A DNA stretch of 64,000 nt from Pascua guehoae (Eukaryota > Basidiomycota > Tremellomycetes > Trichosporonales > Trichosporonaceae), in assembly GCA_001600415.1 (NCBI GenBank), contig BCJX01000013.1, positions 750,116 through 814,115 of the forward strand, given 5' to 3'. Shown one piece after another: positions 3,370 to 43,575 of this stretch. The position numbers and the translations under genes were made by a program. Numbering within the stretch: the stretch's first letter is position 1; every line of letters begins with the position of its first letter. Under the pieces are notes generated by a model, which was given only the letters and a program-made list of their open reading frames with translations, did not search any database and had not been told where the DNA came from.

Positions 3370-4341
3370 GATTTCGTGTTTGGGTGCTGTCGAGTAGCTG
3401 TGCGTAAAAAGGAGTGTAGAGGTCGAGCTACCTTGTGCCAGAGAGGCGGGGCATGATGGTCATTGAAAGGATTGCCGCCACTGCATTATGTATGCAGCAT
3501 TGTATGACAGCGACAACGTGCAGATCGAGGTCAATGAGCGGCAAAGCGAGTGTACATTGCGGGGCATGGCGGGGCATAGCGGGGCATGGCGGGGCATGGG
3601 CGGCACCTGCCTAACATGTGCGTTCGGTGAGTCCGGCGAAGTGTCCGACGTCCAAAGAGACTCTTGCTCAAACTCTACAGTACGATAGGAACCAGGGCTT
3701 GATAGGGTTGTTGGCCGCTCTACCTCTGCCCAAGTTGCCGCTATGGGCGGACAGTACGGTACCGAAGCGGGTCAATGTCAAGCGGACAGGACAAGGGGTA
3801 ACGGTGGGTGTCATCAGAGGGCAACACAGACACATGTGCATGATGCATGTGCTTCACGAAGGCCCCCCCGCACGGCACACGTCCCATTGTTTTCGATCGG
3901 GAGATGCGGCGAAATTCGGCATGGCCTGTGTTGGAAGAACAGCCCCCAGCTGAAATGGTCGGCAACGTGCGGCCAGCAACCGTCATGCGGCATTGACTGT
4001 CAACAAAGGCAATGTGGCAACGGACACAGTGGCCAATGGTTTGTTGACATGTTAGGGGAGCGGATCACTCATGTGCTGATCGCCATTGTTGATGCCTTGA
4101 TCGTCATGTGTGCGTGTGTGTGTGCCATGTGCCAGGTGGCACATGCCAGGTTGCACGTTGTTTACCACCCGGTTCATGACGTCGGCATTAAATGCCGACC
4201 TCCACCCAACCACACTCTGACGTGCTTAGTCAATTGGGTCGACTCGAACTCCGTGTCGGTGATCGTCAACATGCAACCGGTTCCCAACACCAAGTCCCAT
4301 TCTTGCGATCTTTGACTTACTCCCATTGCCCCATTCACAAA
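3370..4341. other. Divergent intergenic region with a short tandem repeat
   Basis: This stretch separates the UNC93-type gene (minus) from the nitronate monooxygenase (plus) and must hold both promoters. A roughly 10-bp tandem repeat, 'cggggcatgg', runs at about 3560-3600. No coding pattern was recognised and no clear TATA box sits close to either start. Confidence 0.6.
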
Positions 4342-5406
4342 ATGTCGCTCCTGAAACGCCTTGGCCTTCGCTACCCGATCATCCAGGCGCCGATGGCGGG
4401 CGTCACGACGCCGGCGCTGGCTGCGGCAGTCTCGAACGCTGGCGCGCTCGGCTCACTCGGTGTTGCAGCCCTGGACGCCGAGGGCGCGCGCAAGCAGATC
4501 CGTGCGGTGCGCGATGCGACAGACAAGGCCTTCAACGTCAACCTCTTTGTGCACCAGGACCCGTCGCCTGACGCTGCGCGCGATGCGGGGTGGATCGAGC
4601 ACCTTCGCCCCGAGTTTGAAAAGTTTGGCGCGTCGCCGCCGACGGCGCTCAAGGCGGGATACAAGTCGTTTCTCACGTATGACGACATGGTTGCGGTGAT
4701 TCTCGAGGAGAAGCCGCCGGTCGTGAGCTTCCACTTTGGCCTGCCGTCGCCCGCGGTCGTGCGCGAGCTCAAGGCCGCAGGGTGCGTGCTCTTTGCGTCG
4801 GCGACGAGCGTCGACGAGGCGCGCGCCGGCGAGGCGGCGGGCATGGACGCGATCGTCGCTCAGGGTTACGAGGCGGGCGGCCACCGTGGGATCTTTGACC
4901 CCGATGGACCCGACGAGAAGCTCTCTGCCCTCGAACTCACGCGCCGTGTCGTCGCCGCAGTCGGCGTGCCCGTTATCACCGCCGGAGGCATCATGGACGG
5001 CGCCGGTATCCGCGCCGCCCTCGATGCGGGAGCAGAGCTCGCCCAGCTCGGCACGGCGTTTGTCACCTGCACCGAGAGCGCAACGCCCGCCGCTCATCGC
5101 GCTGCCTTTAACACGGACGCTGTCAATCACACCCGCATCACCCCCGCCGTTTCGGGACGCCCCGCACGCACACTTGCTACGTCATGGAGTGCCATCACTG
5201 CCGACCTCGAGCAGAAGGGCCAGCTCTCCAAGATCGCAGCATACCCCAACGCCTATGACATTGCCAAGCAACTCAACGCGCTCGCGTCGTCAAAGGGAGA
5301 CACCAGCTATGGCGCATTCTGGTCCGGCACCGGTGCGCCCCATGTCCGTCCCATGCCTGCTGCCGAGCTTGTGCAGACGCTCGCCAAGGAGCTCGAGAGT
5401 GCTTGA
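4342..5406 (+). CDS. Nitronate monooxygenase (2-nitropropane dioxygenase family)
   Basis: This is a single-exon gene of 354 residues. It is an FMN-dependent TIM-barrel enzyme that oxidises alkyl nitronates such as propionate-3-nitronate, detoxifying nitro compounds. The N-terminus 'LGLRYPIIQAPMAGVTTPALAAAVSNAGALGSLG' type signature spans residues 5-40 (key residues QAPMAG and NAGALGSLG). FMN-phosphate binding elements follow: the 'QGYEAGGHRG' loop near residue 175, 'VPVITAGGI' near 212 and 'AELAQLGTAFV' near 235. The start at 4342 is chosen because the family N-terminus follows directly (MSLLKRLGLRYPI); upstream in-frame codons look non-coding. It is intronless among intron-rich neighbours, which could reflect acquisition from bacteria, but codon use matches the genome. 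Confidence 0.93.
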   Translation: MSLLKRLGLRYPIIQAPMAGVTTPALAAAVSNAGALGSLGVAALDAEGARKQIRAVRDATDKAFNVNLFVHQDPSPDAARDAGWIEHLRPEFEKFGASPPTALKAGYKSFLTYDDMVAVILEEKPPVVSFHFGLPSPAVVRELKAAGCVLFASATSVDEARAGEAAGMDAIVAQGYEAGGHRGIFDPDGPDEKLSALELTRRVVAAVGVPVITAGGIMDGAGIRAALDAGAELAQLGTAFVTCTESATPAAHRAAFNTDAVNHTRITPAVSGRPARTLATSWSAITADLEQKGQLSKIAAYPNAYDIAKQLNALASSKGDTSYGAFWSGTGAPHVRPMPAAELVQTLAKELESA

Positions 5407-5862: not shown

Positions 5863-8037
5863 ATGCCCCCGTCATCATCCACGCCCCCTGCCGGTGACGG
5901 CTCACAGGCCGGCAAGACCAAGCGCACAAGCGCGTGTCTGCACTGTCGTCGGCAGAAACTAAAGGTATGTATTGTGTTTGCGCATGTCCCGAGTTTCGCC
6001 CATCTCGCCGAGCTGTGTCTCAAAGAGATTGCTTGCTAGATCCGGACCGTCGCCGCTATTCGCCGTGTCGCTGACAATCAGTGCGATGGTGGTCCTGACC
6101 GAACGTGCACACGGTGTGTAGCAAGTGTTGCCTGCATGGCAGATGCACGACGGGTGGCGTGGGACTTTGCTAATGTCAGATGCCGCGACGATGGGGTGGA
6201 GTGTGTGGTGCGGCCGCGAGCCAATGCAGCCATCCTCGCCGACGACTTGCGATGGTGAGGAATACACACGTCGAGTGGTAGCCAGCCGCGATCATGACTG
6301 ACACGATGCAGGCAGCAGTCGGTCGAGATGCGCCTACAGGCGCTCACGCGCGAGATTGAAGAGGTCAAGTCTGTCAACGCTGGCTTGGTGCGGCAGATAC
6401 GCTCCGAGGGCTCGCGATCTTCGCGACGGTCGGCGTCACCGCCACCGCGGATTATTCAGCACCGTGGTAGCAGCTCCACGGTATCGGCTCCTGTCATCAC
6501 CAGCCCTCACGCCCCTCTGCCCAAACACCTCGTCGGTCTCCGTGATGTTCTGAGCCCTGCGCTCAATGCGCTTCAGCACCCAGCGCCGCTGGATGTCTCG
6601 ATCGACGACGCGACTCTGCTGTGGGAGTAGTACGTCCCCTACACATACCTGTACACCAGCGTCACTGACACGATAGCTTTTATGACTCGCTTGCCATCTT
6701 CCATGGCTTCACTGCGAGTACCGAGCTCGCGACGCCGTCTCCACTTCTCTTCTCAGCAGTAGTCACAGCGTCCGCCAAGCGCTTTATCGGTCAGATGGCG
6801 ACGCCCATTGAGCGCTGGGAGGAACTGTTCCAGCGCGCCTTGGTTCGCCTTCTGTATGTTGTGGTCCCAAAGACTTGGGACGACTGTGTCGCGCTTGGCA
6901 TTGCGCGAACTTGGTTCTGGAAGGCGGATGAGATCACTGCCGGTCTTATCTATGGCTCCTTTGTCGAGACCATCACTCCCAACCAGAATGACCTGAGGGA
7001 CCGCCGCGTTTGGGACTTTCTTGAAGTAAGCCTGCTGCCTCACCAGCCTCAGCCGGCGCTGACCAACAGATGACGACTGTGTCGCACGGCATTCTACACC
7101 TGTCCACCCCGATTGTACCCGACCAACCCCCGCGCGGGGTCCCCGACCGCCGACCTTCACACGTCCTCTTGATGGCTCTCAACGAGCTGTTTGACTCTTT
7201 GGGCGTCGTCTCGCGTGCCCTCACCAATCCCCGCAGCCTCGTCATGATGGCTCTCACCAGCCAGCCCTCTGCCAAGCCTCTTACGTTTGCAGAGATTGTT
7301 GTGCTTCGCAACTGTCGCACAGATCTTGAGCGGTGGTGCCCAAAGTGGCTGTATGAAATCCAACGTAGGTCGCACGGTTGCGCCCCTGTGACATGCTCTC
7401 TGACTCCTCCCAGACGCTGATGCTGCCGCACTTCCCACAGGAAGCGGGCGCGAGTTCCTCGTCGACCTTGTCACGCTCTACTACCATGTGGCTCTGGTGG
7501 TCCTCGATGGGTACCTGAACCAAGCATCCCCGCCCGAGAACCAGCGCTTTGAAGCTTCTGCGAGGGACCTGCTCAACCTGGCCGTCACAAAGTGGGCCGA
7601 CTCACTCCACTTCTGGCCCAAGCTCTTTTTGCACTCGAGTCTGATTGCAGCGCTCGTCCCCTCTCCAGATGGTGAGCACATGCACCCTCCCGCGAGTGTT
7701 GCTAACCTCAGACCCACTCGTGCGCCGAGCATACGACTGCTTTGTGACCATGTCCCCGATGCTGCAAACATCGGGTACAAAGCTTTTCCATCGGCTCTCG
7801 GAACGAGTGCAGGGAACGACCGCTTCTGCCCTGCCAATGCCGGTTTTTACGCCACAGGATGTGGACATCCCGATTGCGATGGCGTACACTGGGAGTGACT
7901 CTTTTTGGGCCGACCTGAGCGGCGTTCTCGGGCTGCCGCAGCCGGACTTGGCCGGTCCCATTCAGGTCCAACCACAGCAATGGCCGCGCGATCTGCCTCA
8001 ATGGAACCCCGCAGGCCAAGTCGAGCGCGTAGAGTAG
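5863..8037 (+). CDS. Zn2Cys6 transcription factor, candidate local regulator
   Basis: Eight exons assemble into one frame. The N-terminal binuclear zinc cluster is split by introns: CLHCRRQKLK at the end of exon 1, CDGGPDRTCTRC in exon 2 and DDGVEC in exon 3. This gives the six cysteines in C-x2-C-x6-C-x7-C-x2-C-x6-C spacing. A short coiled-coil linker follows (MRLQALTREIEEVKSVNA). A helical middle-homology region comes next (SLAIFHGFTASTEL, ERWEELFQRALVRLLYV, WDFLE) and the protein ends in PQWNPAGQVERVE. The acceptor and donor phases agree at every junction (introns begin at 5965, 6114, 6255, about 6631, 7026, 7364 and 7672). It ends 288 bp before the MurQ-like etherase on the same strand, so it may regulate the amino-sugar genes; that link is positional inference only. 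Confidence 0.85.
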
Positions 8038-8325
8038 GAACGCGATGCAGAGCAGATAGTGAGCCGGAAGAGTCAAAGCTTGATAGGGAGTCTTGCCGAG
8101 GCCGCGTGAGGCCAGAGCGGCCAGAGCCAGCGGAGCCAGCAGCGAGTTTGTAACTGATGTAATATTGTACCGCGCGGCCCTGTGTGATTCCACTCGGTAA
8201 ACTGGCCGCGTTAAAATCCCCCGAGCACATTGCCGGCCAGCTTGCCGAATCTTCGTTCGTCACTGACCATAATAGCGCCGCCAACCATCATAAATGCACA
8301 CCCAACGTCTCCCATCGCACTTACC

Positions 8326-9895
8326 ATGACCATCACAATGGCGCCCTACATTGACTTGTCAGTCCTCCAGACGGAGAAGCGCAACTCTCTCACCTGCGAG
8401 ATTGATGTCGTCGACACCGAGGACATGTGCCGTGAGTGTCGTCTGATAGGCGCACGTCCCACCCCCACTCACACATCTCGGCCTCCACCGACAATGGACG
8501 GACGGTGGCGCTAGATGCCCGTATGCCTATTCCTAGCGCGCGCCAAGTGCTAACACTGTCCAGGCATGATCAACCAGCAAGACCAGACCGTCGCCGTGTC
8601 CGTGTCACTATGCATCCCGACCATCGCCGCCATCGTCGACCAGCTGGCGCCCAAGGTCCGCCGCGGCGGCCGCGTCGTCTACATGGGCGCCGGCACGTCG
8701 GGGCGCCTGGGTATTCTTGACGCGTCCGAGATGTGAGCCAACCACAGGGTTCGGGGGCACTCGTGTACCCTGGCCCGTCATGTGTAACGCGTGCTGACGT
8801 CTAGCCCACCAACATTCTCGGCACCTTATGGCCAGTGGATTGGGTGAGTCCGAGCCTGCCGCACGCCGCACCGCGTGTCACTAGATTACTGGATCACTCG
8901 CCCAAACCCAAACTAACACCCCCAGCCTGATCGCAGGCGGCACCACGGCGATCCAGAACGCCGTCGAGGGCGCCGAAGACGCGCCCGAAGCAGGCGCCGC
9001 AGACCTCGCCGCCCTCTGCCCCCCACTCGACCCCGAGCTCGACAGCGTCATCGGCCTCGCCGCCTCGGGGCGCACCCCCTACGTCCTCGGCGCCCTCGAC
9101 TATGCCCGCGACCTCGGCGTCTTCACCGCGGGTATCTGCTGCGTCCGGCCCAGCGCCATGGCGGGCGTCGCTGACCTCGTCGTCGAATGTCCCGTCGGGC
9201 CAGAGGTCGTGACGGGCTCCACGCGGATGAAGTCGGGCACGGCGCAGAAGATGATTCTCAACATGATCTCGACGGGTGTGCAGCTGAGGATTGGCAAGAC
9301 GTATGGCAACCTTGTGAGTTTCGGTGCCGCGTTAGCGTGTTGTCGCGTTGGCGGGTAGGCGGGCTGCAAAGCACTATCAGTGCTGTTCTCTCTTATCCCA
9401 AGAGGTGATGGAGTGTGGCCCCACCGTCGCTGGGCAAGACGTACCGAGCAGGCATGGTCACGACCACTGCTGGGACAAGGGACGGCCATCATGGTCTTGG
9501 CCCCATCCTACACCTCCCATTCCCTGTCTTGCACAGCAGATCCACTCCTACACCCCAACATTTATTTCCACTCCCACCACCCCCCCCCCCCTCTTTCCCC
9601 CCACCCTTGAACCGAGACTAACCCACTCCAGATGGTCGACGTCAAACGCTCAAACTTCAAGCTCATCAACCGCGCCCGCCTCATCTTCCGCTCCGTCCTC
9701 GAACCCCTCACCCTCCCACCGACGTCGGTCAAGCTCAGCGTCGACCTCGCCGACAACGACGCCATTGACCGCATCATTGACGACTGCGACGGGAGCGTCA
9801 AGCGCGCCATGGTCGCTGCGCGCTGGGGGTGCAGCCCATCCGAGGCCGCAAAGCGTCTCGAAAAGGCAGAAGGCATCCTCAAGAAGGCGATTTGA
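8326..9895 (+). CDS. N-acetylmuramate-6-phosphate etherase (MurQ-like, SIS domain)
   Basis: Five exons (8326-8431, 8564-8732, 8805-8843, 8926-9313, 9632-9895) give 321 residues, the length of bacterial MurQ and about half that of animal glucokinase regulatory protein. MurQ cleaves the lactyl ether of MurNAc-6-phosphate to GlcNAc-6-phosphate plus D-lactate. The sequence follows MurQ throughout: EIDVVDTEDMCRMINQQDQ, then the sugar-phosphate loop YMGAGTSGRLGILDASE, whose final Glu matches the catalytic acid. GLIAGG and AVEGAED follow, holding the second catalytic Glu, then GLAASGRTPYV, GSTRMKSGTAQK and NLMVDVKRSN. The exon-exon joins restore these motifs exactly, so the gene is intact and adapted to splicing. 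Intron 4 is long (318 nt). It is convergent with the kinase gene at 10569-11725. Confidence 0.93.
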
Positions 9896-10568
9896 ACACG
9901 AGACGGCATAACTTGCATAGAAAACTATATCTGTCTGTACATCTTGGGCATGGACTATATTCTGGGCTACTGTACGTGTCAGTGTGTCTTCGATGGAGGT
10001 GGAACCTAATGGGGCTGTCAGTGTTCCAGCTGGCCGGGGAATGCCACAGGGCGGATGAAGACTGAGGGACTCTGTGTGTGTGTGTGTGGCAGTGGGGGGG
10101 GGGGGGGGGGGAGACCGGAGGATAGGGGCGATGTGTTTGTGGGGGGAAGGAGGAGGGGAGGGGACATCAAGGGGCACCAGCACCAGCACCAGCACCAGTA
10201 TGCGGTTCAGACACGGATGTGCAGTGGGCATGGGTTGCACATGTTTCTGGGTAGCAAGGCTGCGGCTGTCAGAGGATGTGAATTGCATGTCCGATTCTGT
10301 TCCAGCACTGTGCAAATTTTTTTTTTTTCTTTTTCTTATTACACGGTGAATAAGGCGCCAGTGAGGAATAGGTGCTCTCAGTCAAATTTCTGAGGGCGAT
10401 GGGTCTCTGTGCCAGAGCCAGCCCTCCTCAAACGACAAGCCTTGCTGAGAAATGCCCTCCCACACCTACGTGCCTTGTTGTCCTTCTACTACAGCATGCG
10501 ACCATGCACACATTCAAACCCTAGATAATCCAATGCCCTGCTATACACAATACACACGGTACAAAACG
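9896..10568. other. Convergent 3' flanks with homopolymer tracts
   Basis: This lies between the tail-to-tail etherase and kinase genes. It holds a TG repeat (about 10073-10088), an 18-base G run (10094-10111), a CACCAG/AGCACC repeat (about 10174-10199) and a T run (about 10317-10328). No coding pattern is visible. Both transcripts must terminate here. Confidence 0.6.
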
Positions 10569-11725
10569 TTACAAGTCCCCGTCGAGAAGGACCTTGAGCC
10601 CACTCATGCCCGGATCGGGCATCTTGACGACCTGGCTCCACGCCCACCCCTTGTCGCGCATGCCGTTCTCGACCTGGTTCCAGAAGACGGGCACCTGCCC
10701 GAGGCCACCGGCGACGACGAGGGTCGCCGGGCCCGCGAGGCGCGCTACGAGGGGCTCGAGGTTGTCGACGACCTGTAGGGCGATTCTGTTCACGATACGG
10801 CTTGCCTCGTCGTCGCCGTCGTCCGCGGCACCGATCGCGATGCGCGCGCACGCCGCAATGCGTTTTTTACGCTCGCTGTCGGCGAGCGGCGGGGCGAGGG
10901 TGGCGTCCAGGCTGCTCGAGGCCGTAATCAGTGCGTCGGCCCCGTCTAGCCCCAGTCCAAAGTGCGCGAGCACGGTGATGTGCCACGCGCGCAGGGGGAG
11001 TCCGTTGGCGGCAAACGTCAGGACAGACGTGACGGCCGCCTTGCCCAGTGCCCACCCCGAGCCCTCGTCGCCCAGCAGCGGCCCCCACCCCCCGCTCCGT
11101 CCCACTTGCCGCACGCCGCTGGTCTTGGCGTCGGTCCCCTCAGTGGCGTCCGCGTTCCGGCGCCACAGGAGGGCCGACGATCCCGTGCCGCAGATGACCG
11201 TGACGCACTCGCGCACCCCGGGCGACGTGTACAGCGGCGCAGTCAGGAGCTCGAGGTCGCCCGTGAGTCGCACGGGGCAGCCCGGGAAGAGCGCACGCAG
11301 GGGTCCAGAGAGGAGGGCTTGGTCGCCCGCCCGCGCGCATCCCGCGTACGCTGCCCAGATACGCTCGAAGCCGGGCCGCGGTGGAGTACCCTCGTCCATC
11401 GCCTCGGTCGCCGTCCCAGTGCTGGTCGACTCGGCACCCCCGCCCACCGGCCACGCCAGGGCGGCGCGTGGCTCGAGCCTTGCGAGCGCGTCCAGCGCAT
11501 CCCGCACCGCCTCGGTCGTCGCGGCCAGGCAGACGTCGAGCCCGAAGGTCCTGCTCGTCAACAATCGCCCCCGCCACCCACGCTCCAGCCCCCAACGTAT
11601 ACGTACAGATTCGACGGCCCGCCCTCGCCACGAGCAATGACCGGCGGCGTCCCCGGAGACGCGACAAAGGCCACCACTGCGGCCGTCTTGGTGCCCCCGC
11701 CGTCGATGCAGAGGTAGTGCGGCAT
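10569..11725 (-). CDS. Amino-sugar kinase, BadF/BadG–NAGK ATPase family (GlcNAc or MurNAc kinase)
   Basis: Two exons encode about 365 residues. Exon 1 starts MPHYLCIDGGGTKTAAVV, the phosphate-1 ATP-binding loop of the ASKHA kinase fold, and reaches GEGGPSNL. After a short intron (near 11605-11553) it continues TFGLDVCLAATTEAVRDAL. Later motifs are VICGTGSSALLWR (phosphate-2), GGWGPLLGDEGSGWALGK (the sugar-binding DEGSG signature of NAGK/BadF) and LVVAGGLGQ (adenosine motif). The family includes animal GlcNAc kinase and the bacterial MurK that phosphorylates both MurNAc and GlcNAc. Its position tail-to-tail with a MurQ-like etherase favours an amino-sugar role; which sugar it prefers cannot be read from sequence. 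It differs from the hexokinase-type GlcNAc kinase of Candida. Confidence 0.88.
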
Positions 11726-12999
11726 GGTGTGTTCGTGGTTCGAATCCGTGCTGCTGGCGGGTTATCAGCTGGGCACGTGTGGTGAGGCGGGGTGAGGCAC
11801 TCGGTGAAATCTCCGACCATGCGGTCCCGGGCTGGGCGCGGGGCGAGCTGTCGGGTAGCTGCCCGGCGGCCAACGTCGGCCAGAGAATCACCCTGCAATT
11901 GTTTGTGCATGAGCATGCAGCGTACAGCATCCCTTCATCACGTCTGTGCACACTAGTCGTCAAAGTTGAATCACAACAATGCTTGGACGACCTCACGCTG
12001 GCCGTCTTTGCCGGGCGCATGCCCGGCGAGCTGCCCCAGCTAGCCCACACTCGTTGCGTCATGGGCACCTTTCGACTCGTTTAGCTTTGGCGAGTTATTC
12101 CTGAAACGGCAAGCTTGGCAGAGCAACCTCAGCTTCCGAACATCTCTGCCCGCGGGGTCAGGGGGATGTCAACTGTGTACATCCTTTGTTGACGTGTCTC
12201 TAGGCTATTAAAAGGCACACAAGGCACTCGCAACGCACCGCTCCACAAGCCGCCAGACCACCCGTCCGAGGAGGAGCGGAGCCACATGTCCGCTCGCCCC
12301 CCGCGGCGGCGCAATTTCGGAAGAAGACGGCGGGTGGGACAGTAGGCACACCAATAGGTCATCCAGCTCTGTCATGTGGCATGTTGTTCTCGTCAGCTCT
12401 GCAGACATTTCCAACATCAGCCTGGTGTCAACGACGACGACGGAGAGTGCCTGCCACCCCGACACTCGGCTATCAAGCGGATATCCACCGGCCGTTAGCG
12501 CGTTCCGAGGTACACGCTAACATGAGTATTCGCGTGCGCAAAGCTGTCGTGCCCCTCTCGACGACGAGCAGCGGCAAACGGCGGCAGGGGCAAACGCCCT
12601 AGTGAGCTAGTACCTCTTCGCACATCATCAGTTGCAGATCTCACCCCGCATCATTCCCCGCATCATTGCTGTTTGGGGTAATAACACGACAACGAGACGA
12701 GGAGAGAGAGAGGGTCAGGTTGACAACCAAGTTGACGAACTCATTCTTGGTCAGCCCCCCATCGGTGACATCGATGGGGCAAGCGCGTTGATATGACAAA
12801 TTCCTGGCAATCTGCTTTTATCGCTCACTCTTCCCCCAATAATATAAAGCCCACTACTTAAGAGTTGCCCCCGAATTGACGACCACGAGGGTGCAACTCT
12901 TGATATAAACAAGCGCGCTCCCCACACAAACAAAGGGTCCCAAACACCAACGCGCACACAGCAACACACAAGCGCGCGACACAAACGCTTGCCACAACC
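11726..12999. other. Divergent promoter region, kinase and sugar transporter
   Basis: No gene is recognised. The region is shared by the divergently transcribed kinase (minus) and MFS sugar transporter (plus). TATA-like elements occur at 12205-12216 (ctattaaaagg), 12838-12848 (aatataaag) and 12901-12909 (tgatataaa); the last lies about 95 bp upstream of the transporter ATG. A shared regulatory region would suit co-induction of kinase and transporter by the same sugar. Confidence 0.5.
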
Positions 13000-15404
13000 A
13001 TGGAATCGATGAAAACGTACCGCCCGGCGGCCATGAGCCGCTTCAATGTGGCGCACAGGCTCGAAAAGCGCAAACTCCTCATTGCGATCAACTGTATTGC
13101 CGGCCTTAGTATCTTCTTCTTCGGTTATGGTGAGTTGTCGGGATTGCTTGAGGGGGGCGGACAAGCGACCAATAACTGACACCGTCTAGACCAAGGAATG
13201 GTAAGTTACTGTGCGGCTGCGGTCCACCACTCAACAGCGACTGGGGAGATTCCCTGTAACACTTGCTAGCCAGTATCAGCGCGTTCTCGCGGCACGCTAC
13301 CCCACGCATTATGCCCTCTGCCGGGTGACTCTGTGCTGACGGGGCCAGATGGGCGGTGTCAATAATGCACCCGACTACATTGCGCGCATGGGGTTTGGCC
13401 ACACCGAGCTGAAAGACGGCATGCCCACGCCCGTCGTGACCGACTCGCTCTTACAGGGCGGCATCGTCTCCGTCTACTACCTGGGCACGCTCGTGGGCTG
13501 CCTTGTGGGAGGCCTCGTGGGCGAGCGGTTCGGGCGCATCCGGACGATTGCATTCGGGGCCGTCGTCGCCATTGTCGGTGCGTCGCTCCAGTGCTCGGCC
13601 ATGAACCATGCGTGGATGATCTGCGCACGCCTCGTCAACGGATGGGGTACGGGGATCCTCAACTCGATCGTCCCCGTGTATGCGACCGAGACGGCCGACC
13701 ATACGAGCCGTGGCCAGTTTATCGCCATCGAGTTTACGCTCAATATCGTCGGTGTCGTCGTCGCGTACTGGATGGAGTAGTGAGTGGTCTGCAGGCTCTG
13801 TCGTCTAGAGGGATAATTGGACATGGCGAGTGGTCGCGACACCTGCATGGCATTCGGTTCCTGCAGCGAGTCGTACGCAACTCACGATCCACGACCCATA
13901 CACGCAGCAACAGGGGGACATACGCCGCACAGTTCCTAACCCCCCAGCGGCCTCTCGTACATTGACGGCGGCTACTCGCCGTTCCGCTGGCGCTTCCCCA
14001 TTGCCTTCCAGATCATCCCGCTGATTTTCCTCTTTTGCGCCGTGTGGTTTTTCCCAGAGTCGCCGCGGTGGCTCACGAAAATGGGCCGCGAAGATGAGGC
14101 GCGGTACATTCTCGGCAGGCTGCGCGGCACACAGGGCGAGGACGGCATCAAGGCTGAGGCAGAGTACTGCGAGATCAAAGAGGTCGCCATGCAGCAGGTC
14201 CACCACGCGATCCCTACCTCGTACTGGGCCATGATTACGGGGCGCGGCATGGGCGATCTGCATATTGGGCGCAGGGTGCAGCTTGTCATTTGGCTGCAGA
14301 TTATCCAGGAGTGGGTTGGGATTGCGGGTGTCACCATTTGTGAGTACCACAGGGGGGTGTACACAGAGCGTGCGCACAGAGAGCTCTGTACCGGCTGCTG
14401 TATCCACTCGGGCCAGGTAAATTCCCCAACTCCGCAACTGACATGCAGACGCACCAACCATGTTCCGCCTCGCGGGCTTTGACGCCGACAAGTCACAGTG
14501 GATCTCAGGCCTGAACAACATCTTCTACATGTTCTCCACCCTCATCTGCGTCTTTACCCTCGACCGCATCGGGCGCCGCTGGACGCTCTACTATGGCTCA
14601 GTCCTCCAGGGCATTGCCATGTTCCTGTGTGGAGGCTTTACGCGCCTGGGCCTCAACGCCGAAAAGGCGGGCAACCACGGCCAGCAGGCGAGCTATGGTA
14701 TCGCCGCAACGTCCATGGTATTCCTCTTCACATTTGTCTTTGGCGCGACCTGGCTCACGGTTCCGTGGCTGTACCCCGCCGAGATTTTCCCGCTTGCGGT
14801 CCGCGCAAAGGGTAACGCGCTCGGTGTCGTGGGCTGGTCTATTGGTAACGGATGGCTGGTGAGTGATGGGAACGATAAGAACTAGCACGAAACGGGCGTG
14901 GCACTGTGGTTGAACCATGGTGGCTGAATCGGCTTCCACTGCTGTGCCACTTCCACTTGAACGTGCTGCAAGGAAACGACGTGCTCCTCTCCCCTGTCGA
15001 GACGGTCGTTGGGGACACACCTGTAACCGACTAACGCTGCAGTCTCTCCTCCTTCCCGTCTGCTTTGAACACATTGGCGAGAAGACCTACTACCTCTTCG
15101 GTGAGCTGCGATTCCTCCCCCTCCTTCATCTTCCTCTACCCATCCTAATTTCACAGGTATTGCCAACGCGCTCTCCATCCCGATTGTATGGGCATTCTAC
15201 CCCGAGAGCAACCAACGCACCCTCGAGCAAATGGACTGGCTCTTCGAGCCCAAGTCGCCATTCACATGGGACGCAGAGAAAAACTTCCGCAAACGACAAG
15301 CCGAGCACCACGACTATGCCCTCGAGATCCGCCGCACGCGCACCAAAGGCCACGATGTGGTCGAAAAGCACGACCACGACGGCAGCTCGACAGAGGTAGT
15401 TTAG
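13000..15404 (+). CDS. MFS sugar transporter (SP family)
   Basis: Seven exons assemble in phase: 13000-13129, 13190-13200, 13349-13779, 13948-14339, 14449-14859, 15043-15100 and 15157-15404. The protein has twelve predicted membrane spans and the sugar-porter signatures in order: FFGYDQGMMGGV in TM1, the G-E-R-F-G-R-I loop (LVGERFGRI), PVYATETA, PESPRWLTK, DRIGRRW and a C-terminal PESNQRTLEQMDWLF, the family's PESx-R-TLE element. Exon 2 is an 11-nt microexon supplying only the 'DQGM' turn. The substrate is likely a hexose or polyol by family. Its place beside the etherase and kinase makes an amino sugar the attractive hypothesis, but nothing in the sequence proves it. Confidence 0.92.
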
Positions 15405-18088: not shown

Positions 18089-19870
18089 CTAGACTAGTTC
18101 CGGAACGCGGACGGCATCGACGACCTTTCTGAGCGCAGACAGCGTGTCCTCCTCGTGGCCAATGTACCCGACGAGCTGAAGCGCGAGGGGTGCGCCGTTT
18201 GACTGGTCTGCGTTGAAATTGTTGTAAACAAACCGCTCAGACGCGTTGCGCGGCGCAATGGCCGTCTGCTGGTCGACGGTGGGGTCGACAAGCAGGCCAG
18301 TGGGGAACACGGCAGCGGGGTAGTTTGCCAGGTTCCAGTACGATGTATAGTTCCAGTACTTTGCAGTGCCGTGGGCTGGGGCCGGGGTAGGACCGACGGG
18401 GGAGAGGACGACGTCGACCCCCGAGGCCTGCCAGTGGGCAGCGAGGGCGGTCCGCCATTCGTCGCGCCGTGTCTTGCGCCGCAGCACCTCGTCGAGCGTC
18501 GGCTTGGGCCCGCCTTCGTCAAGAATCCACTGCGTGAGCGGCAGAACAGGCTCGCCCGATTGGGCAGTGTGGGAAAGCACGGCCTCGCCGCCGTCGGGCC
18601 AGTAGAGCGACGAAATAATGTCCCACGCCTCCTTGCTCGCTGGCGGCGACCAGTCGACCACCTCAAACTGACCAGACGCCTCGAGCTTGGCCACCGCGTG
18701 GTTCAGCGCACGCACAATGGGTGAGACGGGTGCGACCACACCGTCGTCCCGCAAGATGCCGATCCGGAGCTTGCGCCCAGTATCTGCTACCTCGCGCCAC
18801 GGCTTGACGTGCAGCCTGGAAGCGTGAGAAGGGATTTTGGTCCTTGCCCCACCGTTGCTGCTCACGTAGGATCGCGGAGCCACGGCTTGCTCCCTACCAT
18901 GACCTTCATGTACAGTTCGAGGTCGTCGACAGAGTGCCCAAAGGGACCGTGTGAGCACAGAATACCCTCGTACCCAGACGGGCCGACGGGCATGTTGCAG
19001 CCGCCGTATGGGACACGGCCGACCGAGGGCTTGAATGCAAACACGCCGCACGCAGCTGCAGGCTGTGTTTCAAGTCAGACCGGAAACCACTGCTGCCCAT
19101 GAAACGCACCGAGCGGACAGAGCCGCCAATGTCAGTGCCGACGCCAAGAGCCGAGCCCTTCATGCCCATGAGCGCGCCCTGACCACCGCTGCTTCCGCCA
19201 GATGTGAGATCGGTGTTGTACGGCGAGCACGTCCTTCCGAGGTAGCTTTCCGTCTCGAGGTGCATGAGTGACTACGGGGTTAGATCTTTGTGCACAAACT
19301 CGTCCTGCGGCCTGCGGCTCTCACCTGGGGGTTGGTCGTCTTGGTATGGAAGATGGCTCCCGCCTCGCGGAGTACAGAGACCATGTGTGCGTCGTCGTCG
19401 GCATAGTTCTTGCCAACCATATCGAGGAAGCCGCACGGCGAGTCGTGCCCCTTGAGCGAAATGTGATCCTTGAGGGAGACGACGACGCCGTGCAGGGGTC
19501 CGACAGGCTTGCCAGTCCGCTCAAACTCGGCGTCGAGCCAGCGAGCACGCTCCAGCGCCTCCTGGGGAAACAGCTCGACGAGGCAGTTTGTCCCCTCTTG
19601 AGCGACCGCGGCTGCTTTGCAGTACGCAGTCGCTACTTGGACAGCTGTATACTTGCGCGCCGCTAGAGCATCACGCAGCTCGATCGCCGTGTGGTCGATA
19701 ATGGCCTTTTCCTCCGACGAGAGACCCGACCCGATAAGCTCGCGAACATTCAGAGGGAGCGGATACGCCGTCTTTGGTAGCCGCCATTCTGCGGGGATCG
19801 TAGCGTCTCGAGCGGCAATGGCGTCCGCCGCAAGTTCCCGGGCGCTGGGAAGGACTTGCACTGGCGACAT
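18089..19870 (-). CDS. Amidase-signature enzyme, acetamidase-like
   Basis: Four exons from the ATG at 19870 to the stop at 18089 give about 540 residues, the usual size of fungal acetamidases of the amidase-signature family, which hydrolyse small amides to acid plus ammonia. The Ser–cisSer–Lys triad is visible: the lysine in VVSLKDHIS, the cis-serine in TSGGSSGGQGAL and the nucleophile in GTDIGGSVRSPAACG. The last motif is restored exactly by splicing at about 19103/19057. Other conserved pieces are GPMxHSVDDL-like (GPFGHSVDDLELYMKV), KPSVGRVP and a C-terminal GAPLALQLVG. Introns lie near 19325-19277, 19102-19058 and 18867-18815. No signal peptide, so probably cytosolic. It may be used for nitrogen; release of acetyl or amide groups from amino-sugar derivatives is only speculation. 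Confidence 0.92.
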
Positions 19871-21328
19871 GGTTTCAGGATGCGTGACAGCTCGAGGAGT
19901 GACAGAAAGGGGGCGGAGGAGGGGGGGCAGATGACTTGGAGTAAGAGAGACCGTGAGCAACTTTTGTGTTGGCGGGCTCCTAAAGTATCTCTCTGAAGTG
20001 CTTTGGGTAAACCCTCCAGAAACAGCCGTATCTCATCGTATCTACCGTATCGCCTCGTATCGATACGCAACCTCCGGCGACGCTCACATACGCGCGGCCA
20101 CGCATTTACATTCCTGCGGCCACGCAGCCACGCGAGTGGCAGGCGGCAATATAGTGAGAGTGGGAGTGAGAGGAGCCGGCAGGGCGGTCCGTCAAGCCCG
20201 AGTAGCACGGCTCCCCCTTCGGCGTGGCTTCAAGAGCGGCCTGCAGTGTCGGCCTCACTGCGGTCCAAACAAAGGTTGCGCTTGTCGCTTGTCGCCTGTC
20301 GCCTATCGTTAAAACAAAGTGTGTCTCGTTTTAGGCTCGGAAAAAGCGCTTGTAACCACGACTCCATCATTTGCTCCACTTTGTTGTCGTGCGACTTCTG
20401 GTTGAAACCATGAAAGAGGTGGAGCCAAAGTTGAGTTGACTCCCATTTTGCCAGGTGGAGGCTGGTTGGCTGGCTGGCCGGGTGGGCAGAGTGGCGAATA
20501 ATTCCTAGTTTGCTGGCTGGCGCCCTGCCGCCGGCCCAGCCCGAGACGATGATTGACATTAAGGCACGGCCCACCCAGATCCGACGATACGATCGGCCGC
20601 CTAGGCGTGTGGCAAAAAAGTCCAGCCACACCCGGCCGGCCAGCCAGCCAGGGAAGCCGATCCGGCGCCACCAGGCCGCGGGCCCTTTCGTGCAGAATGG
20701 TTGTGCCGAGCTGCCGAGCTGCCGTACATGCACCCAGAGGTGACTTGCTTGCACACCGACACTTTAGCTGCCGACCGAGGCTATGATTAAACGTTGGGTT
20801 TGTCCCTGCGCAGGCGTGTGCCAAACCAAATACATTGATTGACACTAGTGTCTGACAGAGTGTGCGGTTCCTGTCCCCTGTATTTTCAATCTTGTCGCGC
20901 CCTGTATCATCTGCGAGTCTGCCCACAGCTCGCTGGCAAGGCTGGTCGGTCTCTCTCTCCTGATGTGCACTACTGCATCGACAGTTGACACTAGAATATG
21001 CGTGTGACAGGCGACAGTCGACGCCGGTTAGCGCTAATGTCGATGTACACCCGCCATCTCTTATCTCCAACCATCCAGTCTGGTCATGGGACGGCTCTCA
21101 CACGACCCCCTGTGGCGCACGACCCAGAACATTGGCCCCTAGCAGGCCTCTCACATATAACGTCTCATGTCCCGTTTTGGGAAGTCCATCGCTATCTGCC
21201 CAGCAACAAGAAAGCAGCCCAACGACCGTAGCAAAGGATCCGGAAAGTACCCAGAACGCCATCAACGTCGACAAAGAAAGGAAAAAAAAAAAAGTCCAAC
21301 ACCCCTTCCATAGCTATCACTGCCAACC
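19871..21328. other. Divergent intergenic region, amidase and MFS transporter
   Basis: No gene recognised. The last part, before 21329, has an A run (21283-21294) and a 'catataacg' element near 21150. An imperfect inverted pair of 'ggctggctggccggg' lies at about 20467-20481 and 20634-20652, with other 'gctggc' repeats between. It may be a degenerate foldback element, but boundaries and target duplication are not visible. Confidence 0.45.
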
Positions 21329-23609
21329 ATGCCCTCGTCAGTGGTGGACGACCTCCCGATCCCGGGCTCGCTCCTGCTCGTCGACGTCGACGGCGATGTG
21401 CGCGGCCAGCATGCATCGGGAAGTAGCGAGAGCGACATTCTGCTCAGTCCCGTGCCTTCCAACGACGTCAATGACCCCCTGCGCTGGACGTGGAAGCGCA
21501 AGCAAGTACAGGTCGCCATGCTCATCATTTGTGAGTCACCAAACCCAGCCTGCCCCGTGGAGTGTGCCCGAATAGAACTTTTTTTCCCCGTCCACTTCTC
21601 TAAGGTAGACAATCCACACCCGAGTCTTGGGTCGCACCTATTGCACAGGCTGTTGGTTTGCTTGGGTTGCCCAATGGCCAACCTCCGCCCGGCCAAACCT
21701 TGTACTGCAATCACCGGCCCAGGAACGACCCAAAGCTAAGCGCCGACAACCTTGATGGCCATCGAAGCCGACCAGCTCGTTGTAATTGCTGGTTTCGGCG
21801 TGGCCCAAAGGGGTAGGAGGCGAGGAGGTTATTCACGTCGGAATGCTTGTCGGAAGGGGCGTCGGAGTGTTTGTTTGTTTACTTTGTACCGAGGGATCGG
21901 CTGTTTGTTGTCATTTCCACTTTTTCACTTTGTCCATTTTCGTCTTCTAACACATTACAGATGTCTTGTGTACCGGAATCGCCTCGGCCTCGCTCTACTC
22001 GGTCCTCACACCCATCTCGGAGAACACGGGCATCCCGCTCTCGACACTCAATGAGGGCACTGGATACAGTGAGTTCAGACTTGCATGGCGGCCCAAGAGC
22101 GTGCTCACACCCCCAGTGTTCCTTCTCCTCGGCTGGGGTGGTCTCATCACCCAGCCACTGGCCATGACTTTTGGCAAACGTCCAGTCTACCTCGCCACAA
22201 TGGTTGGCCACCTCGGCACTGTCATTTGGATGGGCTACATCAACAACAGGTCGGAATGGCTCGCCAACAAGGTCCTCCAGGGGTTCTTTGCAGCGCCGAT
22301 CGAGATGCTCGTCGAGGTTTCGTTTGCCGATATTGTGAGGTCCACTCGTCTTGTAGTTCCAGCTAACCTGTAGTTCTATGCCCACGAGCGCGGCTTCTAC
22401 ATGGGTCTCTACGGGTGCTGCTTGTTCTCCTCCAACTTTATCGCCCCCATCTGGGCTGGGTGAGTACAGTGTTCATCATAGCAATTAACAGCCAGCTTTG
22501 TCAATGACCGGTACGGGTACAAGGCCGTGTTCTGGGTCTCGGCAGCGGTCCTCGGGTTCGGCATGATTGCCTGCTTCCTGTTTTTGGAGGAGGTGAGTCG
22601 AACATGCTCATAGAAGATATCTGACCCCACAGACAAACTACAACCGCGGCACCTCTGAGCTGGAGGAAAAGCACGACACCAGCGACCTTGCGAGCCACTA
22701 TGACCAGGAGCAGAGTGTGGCGAGCAGCCAGGACAAGGAGAAGGAGGCACGCGTTGCCATCACTGTCAACTCTCCCACTCAACTTGTCGGCACGCCATAC
22801 ACCTGGTTCCAGCGCCTGGCTCTTTACCGGCACCGGTACGCCACCAACAAGGCGCTCTTTACCATGATGTACCGCCCGGTTCTGCTGTTGCGTTTCCCCG
22901 TCGTCTTCTGGTCTGGCTTCCTCTACGGCTCGGGTCTCGTGTGGTTCAACGTCCTCAACGCCACGTCGTCATTGATCTTCACCACCACGTACAACTTTTC
23001 CCCCTCGAGCGTGGGCCTCACGTACTTTGGCAACCTCATTGGCGCCATTCTCGCCGCCGTCTGGAGCGGCTACATTGCCGACAAGATTTCGCTCCACTTT
23101 GCCCGCCGCAAGAACGGTGTCCGTGAGCCAGAGGACCGTCTCTGGCTCCTGACCCTCAACGCCATTCTGCTCCCCACAGGGCTCATTCTGTGGGGGGTGG
23201 GCGCCGCAAAGCACATTCACTGGATCGGCCTCGTGATTGGTGCAATGATGGTAGCCTTTACCTCGGCCACGTCGGGCTCATTTGGAATAAACTATGCGCT
23301 CGACAGCTACAAGGATCTCTCGGGCGACGTCATGGTTACTGTCATGCTTGTCCGCGTGAGTTAAAAGCTAGTCTTGTGTCGTAGCCAAGCTGACAGGCTT
23401 AGAACACGCTCTCGTTTGCCATCGGCTACGGGATCACGCCGTGGGTTACCAACGTCGGTTACCAAAACACGTTTATCACCGCCGCCATGGTCGGCATGGC
23501 CATCTACTCGTCGTTCCTCATCGTTGTCAAGTTTGGAAAGTCGTGGCGCAAGGCATCGCGCAAGACCTACTGGCACTATGTGGAAACCAACGTCATGCCC
23601 GCGCACTGA
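21329..23609 (+). CDS. MFS transporter, drug:H+ antiporter-1/polyamine type
   Basis: The gene has about seven exons. A cytosolic N-terminus ends in NDVNDPLRWTWKRKQVQ, the classical 'DP.NP..W...K' element before TM1 of fungal DHA1 carriers. Twelve membrane spans follow, with GGLITQPLAMTFGKRPVYL (motif A type loop), ERGFYMGLYGC, a central cytosolic loop rich in charged residues (SELEEKHDTSDLASHYDQEQ) and the second half from FWSGFLYGSGLVWFNV on. It ends WHYVETNVMPAH. Intron 1 is long (21531-21960, 430 nt) but restores 'LIIYVLCTGIASASLYSVL'. Such carriers export toxic compounds or move polyamines and allantoate-like solutes; the substrate is undetermined. Confidence 0.9.
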
Positions 23610-40773: not shown

Positions 40774-43575
40774 TCAGGACTTGGCCTTGTCCTTGTCTGC
40801 GCACGGGGTCGACGAGGCCGCGCCGGCGGCGCCGCGGACAGGCGAGGCCGAGGCCGAGGCTGAGGCGGCGGGGGCAGAGGCGGCAGGGGCGGAGGCAGCG
40901 GGCGCGGAGGCGGCGGGGGCAGAGGCGGCGGGGCCAGAGGCGGCGGGGGCAGTGGCTGTGGCCTTGTCTTTGTCCGCGCACGGGGTGGACGACTCGGCGC
41001 CGGCGGCGCCGCGGACGGGCGATGCCGAAGCCGAGGCGGGGACGGCGGAGGCTGCCGGGGCAGAGGCCGCAGGTGCTGATGCTGCTGGTGCCGAAGCTGC
41101 GGGCGCCGAGGCGGGAGGTGCAGAGGCGGCAGGCGCAGAGGCAGCCGGGGCCGAAGCGGAGGGAGCGACCGAGGCCGGCGCCGAGGGCACAGCGCTGGAT
41201 GTCTCTTCGTCATCGCAGTCCTCATCCGTCGGCGCGGGGGGCGGTGCAGACACCGTCTCCTCATCGCACGTGCATTCTTCGTCGTCGGTCGGCGTCGAAG
41301 GGGCGGCGGAGGGGGCGGGTGCCGAGGGCGACGCCGAGGGGCCGGAGCCCTCGACGACCGAGGGCGAGGGCTGGGCCGAGGCCGAGGGCGCAGGGGCTGA
41401 TGGCTCGGCGGAGGCAGAGGGGGAGGAGCCCTCAACCACAGAGGCAGAGGGGGCTGATGGCTCGGCAGAGGGAGCAGGGGCCGAAGGAGCGGGGGCCGAG
41501 GGCTCAGCCGATGGAGCGGGCGCTGAAGGCTCGGTAGAAGGAGCAGGCGCCGAAGGTGCAGCGGCCGAAGGCTCAGACGACGGGGCCGTACCCTCGGTGC
41601 CGGTCGAGGTGCCGGTCGAGCTCTCCTCGTCGCAGTCGTCCTCGTTCGAAGTCGAGGTCGACGGGGTCGTGCTCGTGCTCGTGCTGGTACCCGTGCCCTC
41701 CTCGTCGTCGCAGTCGTCCTCGGTGCTGGGCTCCTCCTCCTCCTCCTCGTCGCAGTACGGCAGGTCGTCGTCGTCGGGCTCGGGCGCGGTCGAGGGCGTG
41801 GTGCCGGTCGACGTACCCGTCGACGTGCCGTCCTCGTCGCAGTCGTCCTCGGTGGTCGATGTCGATGTGGAAGTGTCGGTGCTGGTGCTGGTGTCGGTGC
41901 TGGTGCTGGTGCTGGTGTCGGTGCTGGTGCCCTCCTCATCGCAGTCGTCGTCTGTGGACGTCTCGGTGCCGGTGGAAGTCTCGGTACCAGTGGAAGTCTC
42001 GGTACCGGTGGAAGTCTCGGTGCCGGTACCGGTAGACGTCTCGGAGCCCTCTTCCTCTTCGCAGGTACACTCCTCGTCGTCTGGTGTCGTGCCCGAAGGC
42101 GTCGAGCCGTCGGGGGTGGTGCCGGACGGCGTGGCCGAGGGACCCGCAGGCGTAGACGGGGGCGGGACGCCGTTGACAATGGCCGTCCCGTCAAACGACG
42201 TGCTGGGGTAGCTGCCGTCGGTCGCGCCAGAGGGCGGCGCCGAGGGCTCGGACGGCGGCGTGGTGCCTGCAGGCTCGGGCGGGGTTGATGCCGATGGGAC
42301 GCTGCCGTCGGTGCCTTCGCTTGGTGCGAGCGCAGAAGGCTCGGGGGAAGAAGGCATGGGCGCCGACGCCGAGGGGGGCGTGCCCATCGTCGCGGTGTCG
42401 GAGGGTGGTTCAGACGGCGCAGGCTCCGAGGGGGCGGGCTCAGATGGTGCGGGCTCCGATGGCGCGGGCTCCGATGGTGCTGGGGCAGATGGTGCGGGCT
42501 CCGATGGTGCTGGCTCAGAAGGCGCAGGCGCAGACGGCGCAGGCTCGGAAGGCGTTGCTGGCTCGGACGGTGTTGCGGGCTCTGATGGCGTCGCGGGCTC
42601 TGATGGCGTCGCGGGCTCCGAAGGCGTTGCTGGCTCAGAGGGTGTCGTTGGCTCAGAGGGTGTCGTTGGCTCAGAGGGTGTCGTTGGCTCAGAGGGTGTC
42701 GTTGGCTCAGAGGGTGTCGTTGGCTCNNNNNNNNNNNNNNNNNNNNNNNNNGGCTCAGAGGGTGTCGTTGGCTCAGAGGGTGTCGTTGGCTCAGAGGGTG
42801 TCGTTGGCTCAGAGGGTGTCGTTGGCTCAGAGGGTGTCGTTGGCTCCTCAGAGGGTGTCACGGGCTCGGAGGGCGGCTGTGATGGCGCCGGTGCAGACGG
42901 TGCAGGCTCAGAGGGCGCAGGCGCAGACGGCGCAGGCTCGGAAGGTGTAGCTGGCTCGGACGGTGTCGCGGGCTGCGAAGGCGTTGCAGGCTCCGATGGT
43001 GTAGCTGGCTCCGAGGGCACTGCCGAGGGCGGCGTGCCGGCCGTTCCCGACGCCGCGGGCGGTTGCGACGGAGCAGGGGGCACTGCGCCCGACCCAGTAG
43101 CCGAGGGAGGTGTACCCATGGTGCCCGAGCCTACTGGGCCAGTGGTGGAATCAGTGCACGGCTCAGTCTCGACCGAGTACGACGTGGTGACCACAGTCTG
43201 GACAATGGCGTGGGTGATCTCCTTCTTGCCGTCGTCCTCGCAGTCGCAAGGGGTCGACGATGCCGGGGGAACAATGCCAGCCTGGCCCTTGACGACTGGT
43301 GCTGTTGTTGTTGCTGGTGTGGGCAGGAGAAAGGGAGGAGCGGTCGTCTTCTTGTGCTTCTCGTCGGTGCACGGTGTGGAAGTGGGAGTGTGGACGGGGG
43401 TGACCTTGTCTGTGCAGGGGGTCGTGATGGCGGCGCCGGCGGGGATCGCCGAGGCGCCAGCATAGTGGGGGTTGCGGTTCTCCATGGCCTCGATGTGTCG
43501 GCGGGCCGGCGCGGGGGCAGCCAGGCCCTGCGTCGCGAGCGACACAATGAGGGCAGCGAGAACGACCGTGCGCAT
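40774..43575 (-). CDS. Secreted Pro/Ser/Thr-rich cell-wall-like protein with acidic cysteine motifs
   Basis: This is an intronless gene of about 933 residues, of which 9 are unknown because of the N gap. A signal peptide (MRTVVLAALIVSLATQGLA) is followed by APAPARR, a possible dibasic processing site. The N-terminal 140 residues carry four TPC/EPC-type motifs (TPCTDK, TPCTDE, TPCDCEDD, EPCTDS). A long repeat region follows: PATPSEP/PTTPSE hexapeptides, then PSAPAPSEPA repeats. The middle third is Thr/Ser/Gly-rich ('TSTGTETS') and punctuated by acidic cysteine motifs (ECTCEEE, DDCDEE, YCDEEEE, EDCDDEE and others). The end is Ala/Ser/Pro-rich and closes with two STPCADKDK motifs and a charged C-terminus. 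There is no C-terminal hydrophobic tail, so GPI anchoring is unlikely. It is probably heavily O-mannosylated and wall- or capsule-associated. No enzymatic domain is seen. Confidence 0.85.
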   Translation of the reverse strand: MRTVVLAALIVSLATQGLAAPAPARRHIEAMENRNPHYAGASAIPAGAAITTPCTDKVTPVHTPTSTPCTDEKHKKTTAPPFLLPTPATTTAPVVKGQAGIVPPASSTPCDCEDDGKKEITHAIVQTVVTTSYSVETEPCTDSTTGPVGSGTMGTPPSATGSGAVPPAPSQPPAASGTAGTPPSAVPSEPATPSEPATPSQPATPSEPATPSEPAPSAPAPSEPAPSAPAPSQPPSEPVTPSEEPTTPSEPTTPSEPTTPSEPTTPSEPTTPSEXXXXXXXXXEPTTPSEPTTPSEPTTPSEPTTPSEPTTPSEPATPSEPATPSEPATPSEPATPSEPATPSEPAPSAPAPSEPAPSEPAPSAPAPSEPAPSEPAPSEPAPSEPAPSEPPSDTATMGTPPSASAPMPSSPEPSALAPSEGTDGSVPSASTPPEPAGTTPPSEPSAPPSGATDGSYPSTSFDGTAIVNGVPPPSTPAGPSATPSGTTPDGSTPSGTTPDDEECTCEEEEGSETSTGTGTETSTGTETSTGTETSTGTETSTDDDCDEEGTSTDTSTSTSTDTSTSTDTSTSTSTTEDDCDEDGTSTGTSTGTTPSTAPEPDDDDLPYCDEEEEEEPSTEDDCDDEEGTGTSTSTSTTPSTSTSNEDDCDEESSTGTSTGTEGTAPSSEPSAAAPSAPAPSTEPSAPAPSAEPSAPAPSAPAPSAEPSAPSASVVEGSSPSASAEPSAPAPSASAQPSPSVVEGSGPSASPSAPAPSAAPSTPTDDEECTCDEETVSAPPPAPTDEDCDDEETSSAVPSAPASVAPSASAPAASAPAASAPPASAPAASAPAASAPAASAPAASAVPASASASPVRGAAGAESSTPCADKDKATATAPAASGPAASAPAASAPAASAPAASAPAASASASASPVRGAAGAASSTPCADKDKAKS
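42615..42860. repeat. 18-bp coding tandem repeat (PSEPTT hexapeptide)
   Basis: The plus-strand unit 'ggctcagagggtgtcgtt' is repeated almost perfectly about five times on each side of the gap at 42727-42751. On the minus coding strand it gives EPTTPS hexapeptides. Flanking units grade into degenerate PATPSEP copies, so the centre is the youngest, most homogenised part. Confidence 0.9.
42727..42751. other. Assembly gap of 25 N inside the hexapeptide repeat
   Basis: The gap lies between identical 'ggctc' repeat edges. From repeat edge to repeat edge is 30 bp, which is not a whole number of 18-bp units, so the size is an estimate or placeholder although it happens to keep the reading frame. Confidence 0.95.

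Follow-up and report, generated by a model that had tools for sequence, protein, structure and literature searches.

Why would a yeast carry, side by side, genes for a kinase and an etherase of the kinds that in bacteria act on N-acetylmuramic acid (MurNAc), a sugar characteristic of bacterial walls that, to our knowledge, fungi do not make? The question is raised by a 64,000-nucleotide stretch of contig 13 of Pascua guehoae (positions 750116 to 814115; hereafter, the window), whose 33.6-Mb genome comprises 28 contigs and has short GT..AG introns. Four open, intron-split genes fill positions 5863 to 15404 of the window: a Zn2Cys6 regulator gene (+), a MurQ-type etherase gene (+) 288 bases further on, a BadF-type kinase gene (-) tail to tail with the latter, and a major facilitator superfamily (MFS) sugar porter gene (+), divergent from the kinase gene across 1.27 kb. 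The gene models were spliced by hand with GT..AG introns, the kinase model being checked letter for letter, and they agree with an earlier note on this DNA that all four genes are intact here, with that 288-base gap and those tail-to-tail and divergent orientations. The family calls of that note also held, the MurQ, Zn2Cys6, and sugar porter scores exceeding their cut-offs and the kinase being placed through its match to MurK 8zo3. The four-gene observation is more than chance, because no second copy of the kinase or MurQ gene was found in the genome and the pair is adjacent in a related genus. We consider it likely, from these and the following comparisons, that the kinase and the etherase together salvage MurNAc in two steps, as a bacterial-type MurK-MurQ route working in fungi.

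The assignment of the window etherase as a putative MurNAc-6-phosphate etherase is well supported. At 316.3 bits, the protein exceeded the equivalog cut-off of TIGR00274 (302 bits), its best PDB match was 4s12, and the fold of a homologue was that of MurQ. Residues E91, E119, and E122 are present, E122 being kept in 39 of 39 sequences and E91 in 38 of 39; E91 and E122 are the counterparts of E83 and E114, which we take to be the catalytic glutamates of Escherichia coli MurQ. A search of the whole genome with the MurQ protein, and another with the kinase protein, found no further copy of either at E ≤ 0.001. The closest named relatives of the window MurQ belong to Cutaneotrichosporon yeasts (75% identical), a genus in which C. 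oleaginosum also encodes MurQ, and among the 120 matches listed, MurQ occurred in many but scattered fungal groups. The 24 MurQs treed as fungal (the window protein, 22 named proteins, and P0003) constituted one branch, for which the tree gave no firm sister lineage; this tree and that of the kinase were quick trees with Shimodaira-Hasegawa-like approximate likelihood ratio test (SH-aLRT) values only, drawn at the midpoint and with no root inferred. In the available part of PMC9159588, the murQ gene g1905 of Monascus purpureus is placed within chitin biosynthesis.

Identification of the window kinase as a putative MurNAc kinase is also well supported. Its sole PDB sequence match at E ≤ 0.001 was Clostridium acetobutylicum MurK 8zo3 (1.2e-5; 23% identical over the aligned model), which was also the best fold match of a kinase orthologue. 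This MurK phosphorylates both N-acetylglucosamine (GlcNAc) and MurNAc, according to the accessible part of PMC4432640. The motifs DGGGTKT, GTGS, GGWG, and GDEGSG are present, as is the sugar-site aspartate D138, which all 19 members of a fungal kinase set (the window kinase, 6 named fungal kinases, and 12 unnamed rows) retain. In the kinase tree, the fungal kinases occupied a long branch of their own, apart from the bacterial BadF-MurQ fusions, and neither tree pointed to a donor lineage for the fungal pair. A second BadF-type kinase gene, on contig C7 (884972 to 885214), has GGHG and GDDGS instead of GGWG and GDEGS. One kinase fragment, P0133, is labelled a MurNAc-6-phosphate etherase by its source, perhaps owing to kinase-MurQ fusions.

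The linkage of BadF-type kinase and murQ genes in bacteria, which the earlier note had mentioned, was also seen among the prokaryotic loci analyzed. Scanning for patterns derived from the kinase alignment gave at least 366 confirmed relatives among at least 593 stretches, and the best 80 of the 366 were analyzed; all 80 were retrieved through the GGWG pattern, so that the presence of GGW in 80 of 80 reflects selection and is not evidence. At 55 of these loci, murQ lay within 4 kb of the kinase gene (MurQ profile, E ≤ 1e-10). With E ≤ 1e-8, the count was 56, comprising 36 loci with the genes adjacent on the same strand (≤150 bases), 5 with both in one frame, and 15 with murQ further off; 24 had none, and several of the 80 loci end early at contig ends. 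Successive groups of 20 loci, ranked by similarity, contained 14, 17, 12, and 13 murQ-linked members at E ≤ 1e-8, and therefore, within the 80, linkage varies little with similarity to the fungal kinase. By a rough estimate, not a computed one, the chance of finding murQ at such a distance from an arbitrary gene is well under 1 in 100. The single open frames encoding both MurQ and a BadF kinase came from two Gemmata and three Verrucomicrobia loci (L044, L074, L087, L102, and L105). Planctomycete and verrucomicrobial BadF-MurQ fusions of about 600 residues, which have the same two domains, were also among the matches of the fungal kinase; the domains are fused in those bacteria, whereas they are encoded by separate genes in this yeast.

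Among fungi, Cutaneotrichosporon spelunceum has the kinase and MurQ under the consecutive tags CspeluHIS016_0112550 and CspeluHIS016_0112560, respectively. MurQ P0006 and kinase P0123, which are 85% and 61% identical to the C. spelunceum proteins, are each on a 7,344-base contig; if the equal size means a shared contig, the pair probably occurs in a third lineage.

Two ascomycete MurQs also extend into the start of such a kinase. In Aspergillus nidulans AN11038 (P0043), the etherase is followed, within residues 309 to 373, by about 35 residues of a kinase start, whose best match among 79 kinase matches was a Saitozyma kinase (63% over 35 residues; 1.5e-11) and which matched the NCBIfam NagK model at 4.5e-8. 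A weaker tail of the same kind in the Purpureocillium MurQ P0049 (residues 319 to 364; 45% over 38 residues; 1e-4) was missed by the kinase profile. The two models stop 13 and 1 residues past GPCN, respectively, beside the intron site of the window kinase, which suggests that both are models cut at an intron of a longer MurQ-kinase fusion of about 650 to 700 residues. Because fusions of this size exceeded the length limits of the homologue search, the ascomycete kinase may be undercounted. In addition, four MurQs (P0051, P0054, P0057, and P0064, from Yamadazyma, Priceomyces, and two unnamed relatives) carry a C-terminal tail of 126 to 150 residues without DGGGTKT. For the tail of P0054, the predicted succession of elements, strand-strand-strand-helix-strand-helix-strand-helix, is that of the kinase N-lobe. 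Profile comparison of these tails with the kinase family revealed no sequence similarity, and in the fold comparison of a tailed model, the matches were taken up by the MurQ domain; the tail is possibly a degenerate kinase remnant.

In the proposed route, the kinase would use ATP to convert MurNAc to MurNAc-6-phosphate, and MurQ would cleave the D-lactyl ether of the latter to give GlcNAc-6-phosphate and D-lactate. GlcNAc-6-phosphate could then pass via NagA- and NagB-like enzymes towards fructose-6-phosphate, and D-lactate to a flavin adenine dinucleotide (FAD)-type dehydrogenase, while the neighboring sugar porter may bring in MurNAc and the Zn2Cys6 protein may turn the genes on. Candidates for the later steps occur elsewhere in the genome. 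There were no NagA or NagB homologues at the four-gene locus: the NagA-like exons are on contig C17, and the matches of the NagB/6-phosphogluconolactonase family are on C17 (exon 577944-578291, with 33.2 bits versus a cut-off of 27), on C3, and, outside the window, at C13:1094537-1095302. On C17, the NagA- and NagB-like genes are divergent and about 2 kb apart (577944 to 582247), and nearby frames show Zn2Cys6-like cysteine patterns by eye. FAD-oxidase_C had 7 exon-level matches in the genome, which include candidate D-lactate dehydrogenases along with other FAD enzymes. Of five peptidoglycan hydrolase families, only the broad family GH3 was found (9 matches, 8 over the cut-off).

The closest known counterpart is murTKQ of Tannerella forsythia, which, in the available parts of PMC10465942 and PMC5790795, comprises a MurNAc transporter, the MurK kinase, and the MurQ etherase and makes exogenous MurNAc a source of GlcNAc. 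As in the window, a transporter, a BadF-type kinase, and MurQ occur together, with the kinase acting first and the etherase second, as is proposed here; in contrast, murTKQ as described there is bacterial and has a sodium-symporter-type carrier, whereas the four genes of the window are fungal, contain introns, and include those for an MFS porter and a Zn2Cys6 protein. The parts are of known kinds, and the MurK-MurQ-like pair in the fungus most likely works as murTKQ does. The fungal GlcNAc cluster (HXK, DAC1/NagA, NAG1/NagB, and NGT1) would take up the GlcNAc-6-phosphate product, and its NagA- and NagB-like counterparts here are those on C17; its enzymes, a hexokinase-type kinase, a deacetylase, and a deaminase in the accessible text of PMC4950302, differ from those of the window. 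A GlcNAc kinase of this known fungal pathway is a less likely identity for the window kinase, since the NagA- and NagB-like genes sit together on C17. Likewise, use of GlcNAc by the four genes themselves, as the earlier note had also suggested, is not needed. No description of fungal MurNAc breakdown or of a role for fungal MurQ was found in the titles and abstract starts of the open-licence papers listed; the earlier note, too, was not aware of such a system, and earlier work may exist.

Several observations weigh against MurNAc salvage by the pair. The kinase scored 29.2 bits against PF01869 (BadF), below the Pfam cut-off of 31.5, with a match over residues 7 to 336; precomputed Pfam annotation gives this family to orthologues P0122, P0125, P0126, P0128, P0130, and P0132 and not to P0123, P0124, and P0129. 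The kinase fold cannot tell MurNAc kinases from GlcNAc kinases. One kinase residue, which is Asn in other sugar kinases, is tied to MurNAc binding in the available part of PMC10465942; it does not discriminate, Asn being the commonest residue (31 of 80) in the prokaryotic relatives, which are mostly murQ linked. The NagA-like exons (C17:580351-582247; 86.5, 55.7, and 45.9 bits) are each below the whole-protein cut-off of 225.65. GH25, NamZ, Amidase_2, and NlpC/P60 had no match in an exon-by-exon search of the genome, which split genes can escape; because of this result, the yeast may depend on other organisms to release MurNAc or on enzymes that do not belong to the tested families. The kinase and MurQ lie apart in two Tremellales, on contigs of 71,976 and 40,526 bases in Tremellales sp. 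Uapishka_1 and on scaffolds of 784,392 and 1,921,170 bases, respectively, in Kockovaella, and because of these two cases, linkage of the pair is not general. Finally, a conserved four-gene module in which the porter and regulator are kept with the pair is not supported.

The last point bears on the extent of the unit. The porter (TIGR00879, 275.2 bits versus 237.8; Sugar_tr PF00083, 299.9 versus 22.3) and the regulator (Zn_clus PF00172, 29.6 bits versus a cut-off of 21) are clear family members, and only the kinase-etherase pair may be a unit, with MurNAc entering by another carrier and the porter and Zn2Cys6 genes being chance neighbors or serving something else. We regard this as an even call; it narrows the salvage reading and does not oppose it, and the odds of the two overlap. 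In its favor, the best 120 of 1455 MFS relatives are 68 to 79% identical and mostly ascomycete, many ascomycetes being at 68 to 74%, and no row among these 120, some of which are nameless, was named Cutaneotrichosporon. The genome itself has 82 exon-level sugar porter matches, the best of which outside the MFS gene itself is 33% identical to it, and the kinase, MurQ, and MFS homologues of Uapishka_1 are on three contigs of different size. The three upstream regions shared no word of at least 9 bases (9 to 12 checked), and CGG pairs occurred in all three with many spacings; nothing was concluded about a shared Zn2Cys6 promoter motif. Against it are the divergent arrangement of the kinase and porter genes and the same scaffold size, 1,921,170 bases, for the Kockovaella MFS relative and MurQ, which chance could also give. 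The porter is thus of a widespread fungal kind and, by position only, a candidate importer of MurNAc, and the Zn2Cys6 gene, which was analyzed for its Zn2Cys6 domain and its upstream words, is, also by position, a candidate controller of its neighbors. Of what the earlier note proposed, the kinase-etherase core of MurNAc salvage is well supported, with its family membership, its bacterial linkage and fusion, and its adjacency in C. spelunceum; the complete module with dedicated uptake and regulator is not, in view of the widespread ascomycete porters, the dispersed Uapishka_1 homologues, and the lack of a common upstream word, and synteny in relatives was found for the pair in one named yeast, whereas conserved linkage of the porter was not shown and no homologue search was made for the regulator.

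Other explanations concern what the pair does. An amino-sugar kinase might make MurNAc-6-phosphate by accident and MurQ might clear it; human NAGK acts on MurNAc about as well as on GlcNAc and, more generally, mammalian NAGK phosphorylates MurNAc and muramyl dipeptide (MDP), in the available part of PMC9477735, and the four unmatched hydrolase families and the scattered fungal occurrence of MurQ would also suit such metabolite repair. However, MurNAc would still need to be imported, as fungal synthesis of it is not known to us, and linkage and fusion tie the kinase to MurQ while a second BadF kinase lies elsewhere in the genome, which leaves repair improbable. We think it similarly doubtful that the kinase acts in life on GlcNAc or another amino sugar and MurQ on some related 3-O-lactyl or acyl sugar instead of MurNAc. 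Neither sequence nor fold settles the sugar, and the accessible part of PMC10465942 denies that MurNAc binding can be identified by sequence analysis; yet NagA- and NagB-like genes are present elsewhere, and 16 of the 19 fungal-set kinases have Gly or Ser just ahead of the catalytic Asp, with GGW aligned at S133-P134-L135 of MurK, a weak point given that many murQ-linked prokaryotic kinases have Asn there. Least probable by far is a glucokinase-regulator-like SIS protein with the kinase as its target. GKRP_SIS_N is the top Pfam match of the window MurQ, and several fungal homologues are annotated as glucokinase regulators. Mammalian NAGK and GKRP share the kinase fold and the SIS fold, respectively. 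GKRP is a regulator about twice as long as the window MurQ, and we know of no linkage of the mammalian NAGK and GKRP genes. The 321-residue MurQ lacks the two SIS units of GKRP, the second-SIS model PF22198 reaching 26.5 bits (cut-off, 27) only over residues 56 to 116, within the first unit. A GKRP-type regulator was rejected because of the length and equivalog score of the window MurQ and the fold of a homologue.

Coordinates of the features are collected in Table 1. Upstream of the four genes, a Pfam scan of neighboring frames identified a nitronate monooxygenase gene and an UNC-93-like piece; downstream, it identified exons of an amidase-signature enzyme and an MFS_1 transporter piece below the Pfam cut-off. 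Four of the 10 neighboring frames scanned had no Pfam match, and the flanking genes look unrelated to the four-gene stretch. A stop-free frame of 990 residues further on, without a Pfam match, may be chance in GC-rich sequence.

Table 1. Genes and other features of the four-gene stretch and its surroundings (window positions)
Feature	Positions	Strand	Details
Nitronate monooxygenase gene	4192-5403	+	Pfam scan
Zn2Cys6 transcription factor gene	5863-8037	+	8 exons, 584 residues; PF00172
MurQ-type etherase gene	8326-9895	+	5 exons, 321 residues; TIGR00274
BadF/NAGK-type kinase gene of MurK kind (putative)	10569-11725	-	Exons 11725-11607 and 11550-10569; 56-base intron; 366 residues
Region between divergent kinase and MFS genes	11726-12999	.	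11727-12999 scanned for shared upstream motif
MFS sugar porter gene	13000-15404	+	7 exons, 559 residues; TIGR00879, PF00083
Amidase-signature enzyme exons	18092-20032	-	Pfam scan
MFS_1 transporter piece	22597-23361	+	Below Pfam cut-off
Stop-free frame	40777-43746	-	990 residues

Taken more broadly, we lean slightly towards an old, bacterial-derived MurNAc pathway in dikaryotic fungi that would let eukaryotes eat a bacterial-wall sugar. Its MurK-type kinase and MurQ would be a single protein in some ascomycetes and neighbors in Trichosporonales yeasts; in some budding yeasts, MurQ would carry what is left of the kinase; and in the present lineage, a porter and a regulator would be dedicated to the pathway. 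If MurNAc salvage by the pair is true, a likely function would be available for proteins that fungal records currently call glucokinase regulators, SIS-domain proteins, or hypothetical proteins, and the pair would be a clear case of two bacterial catabolic genes that have stayed together in eukaryotes, whether side by side or fused. Fungi would then use a sugar characteristic of bacteria, and their nutrition would be tied directly to the turnover of bacteria in soil, compost, and gut.

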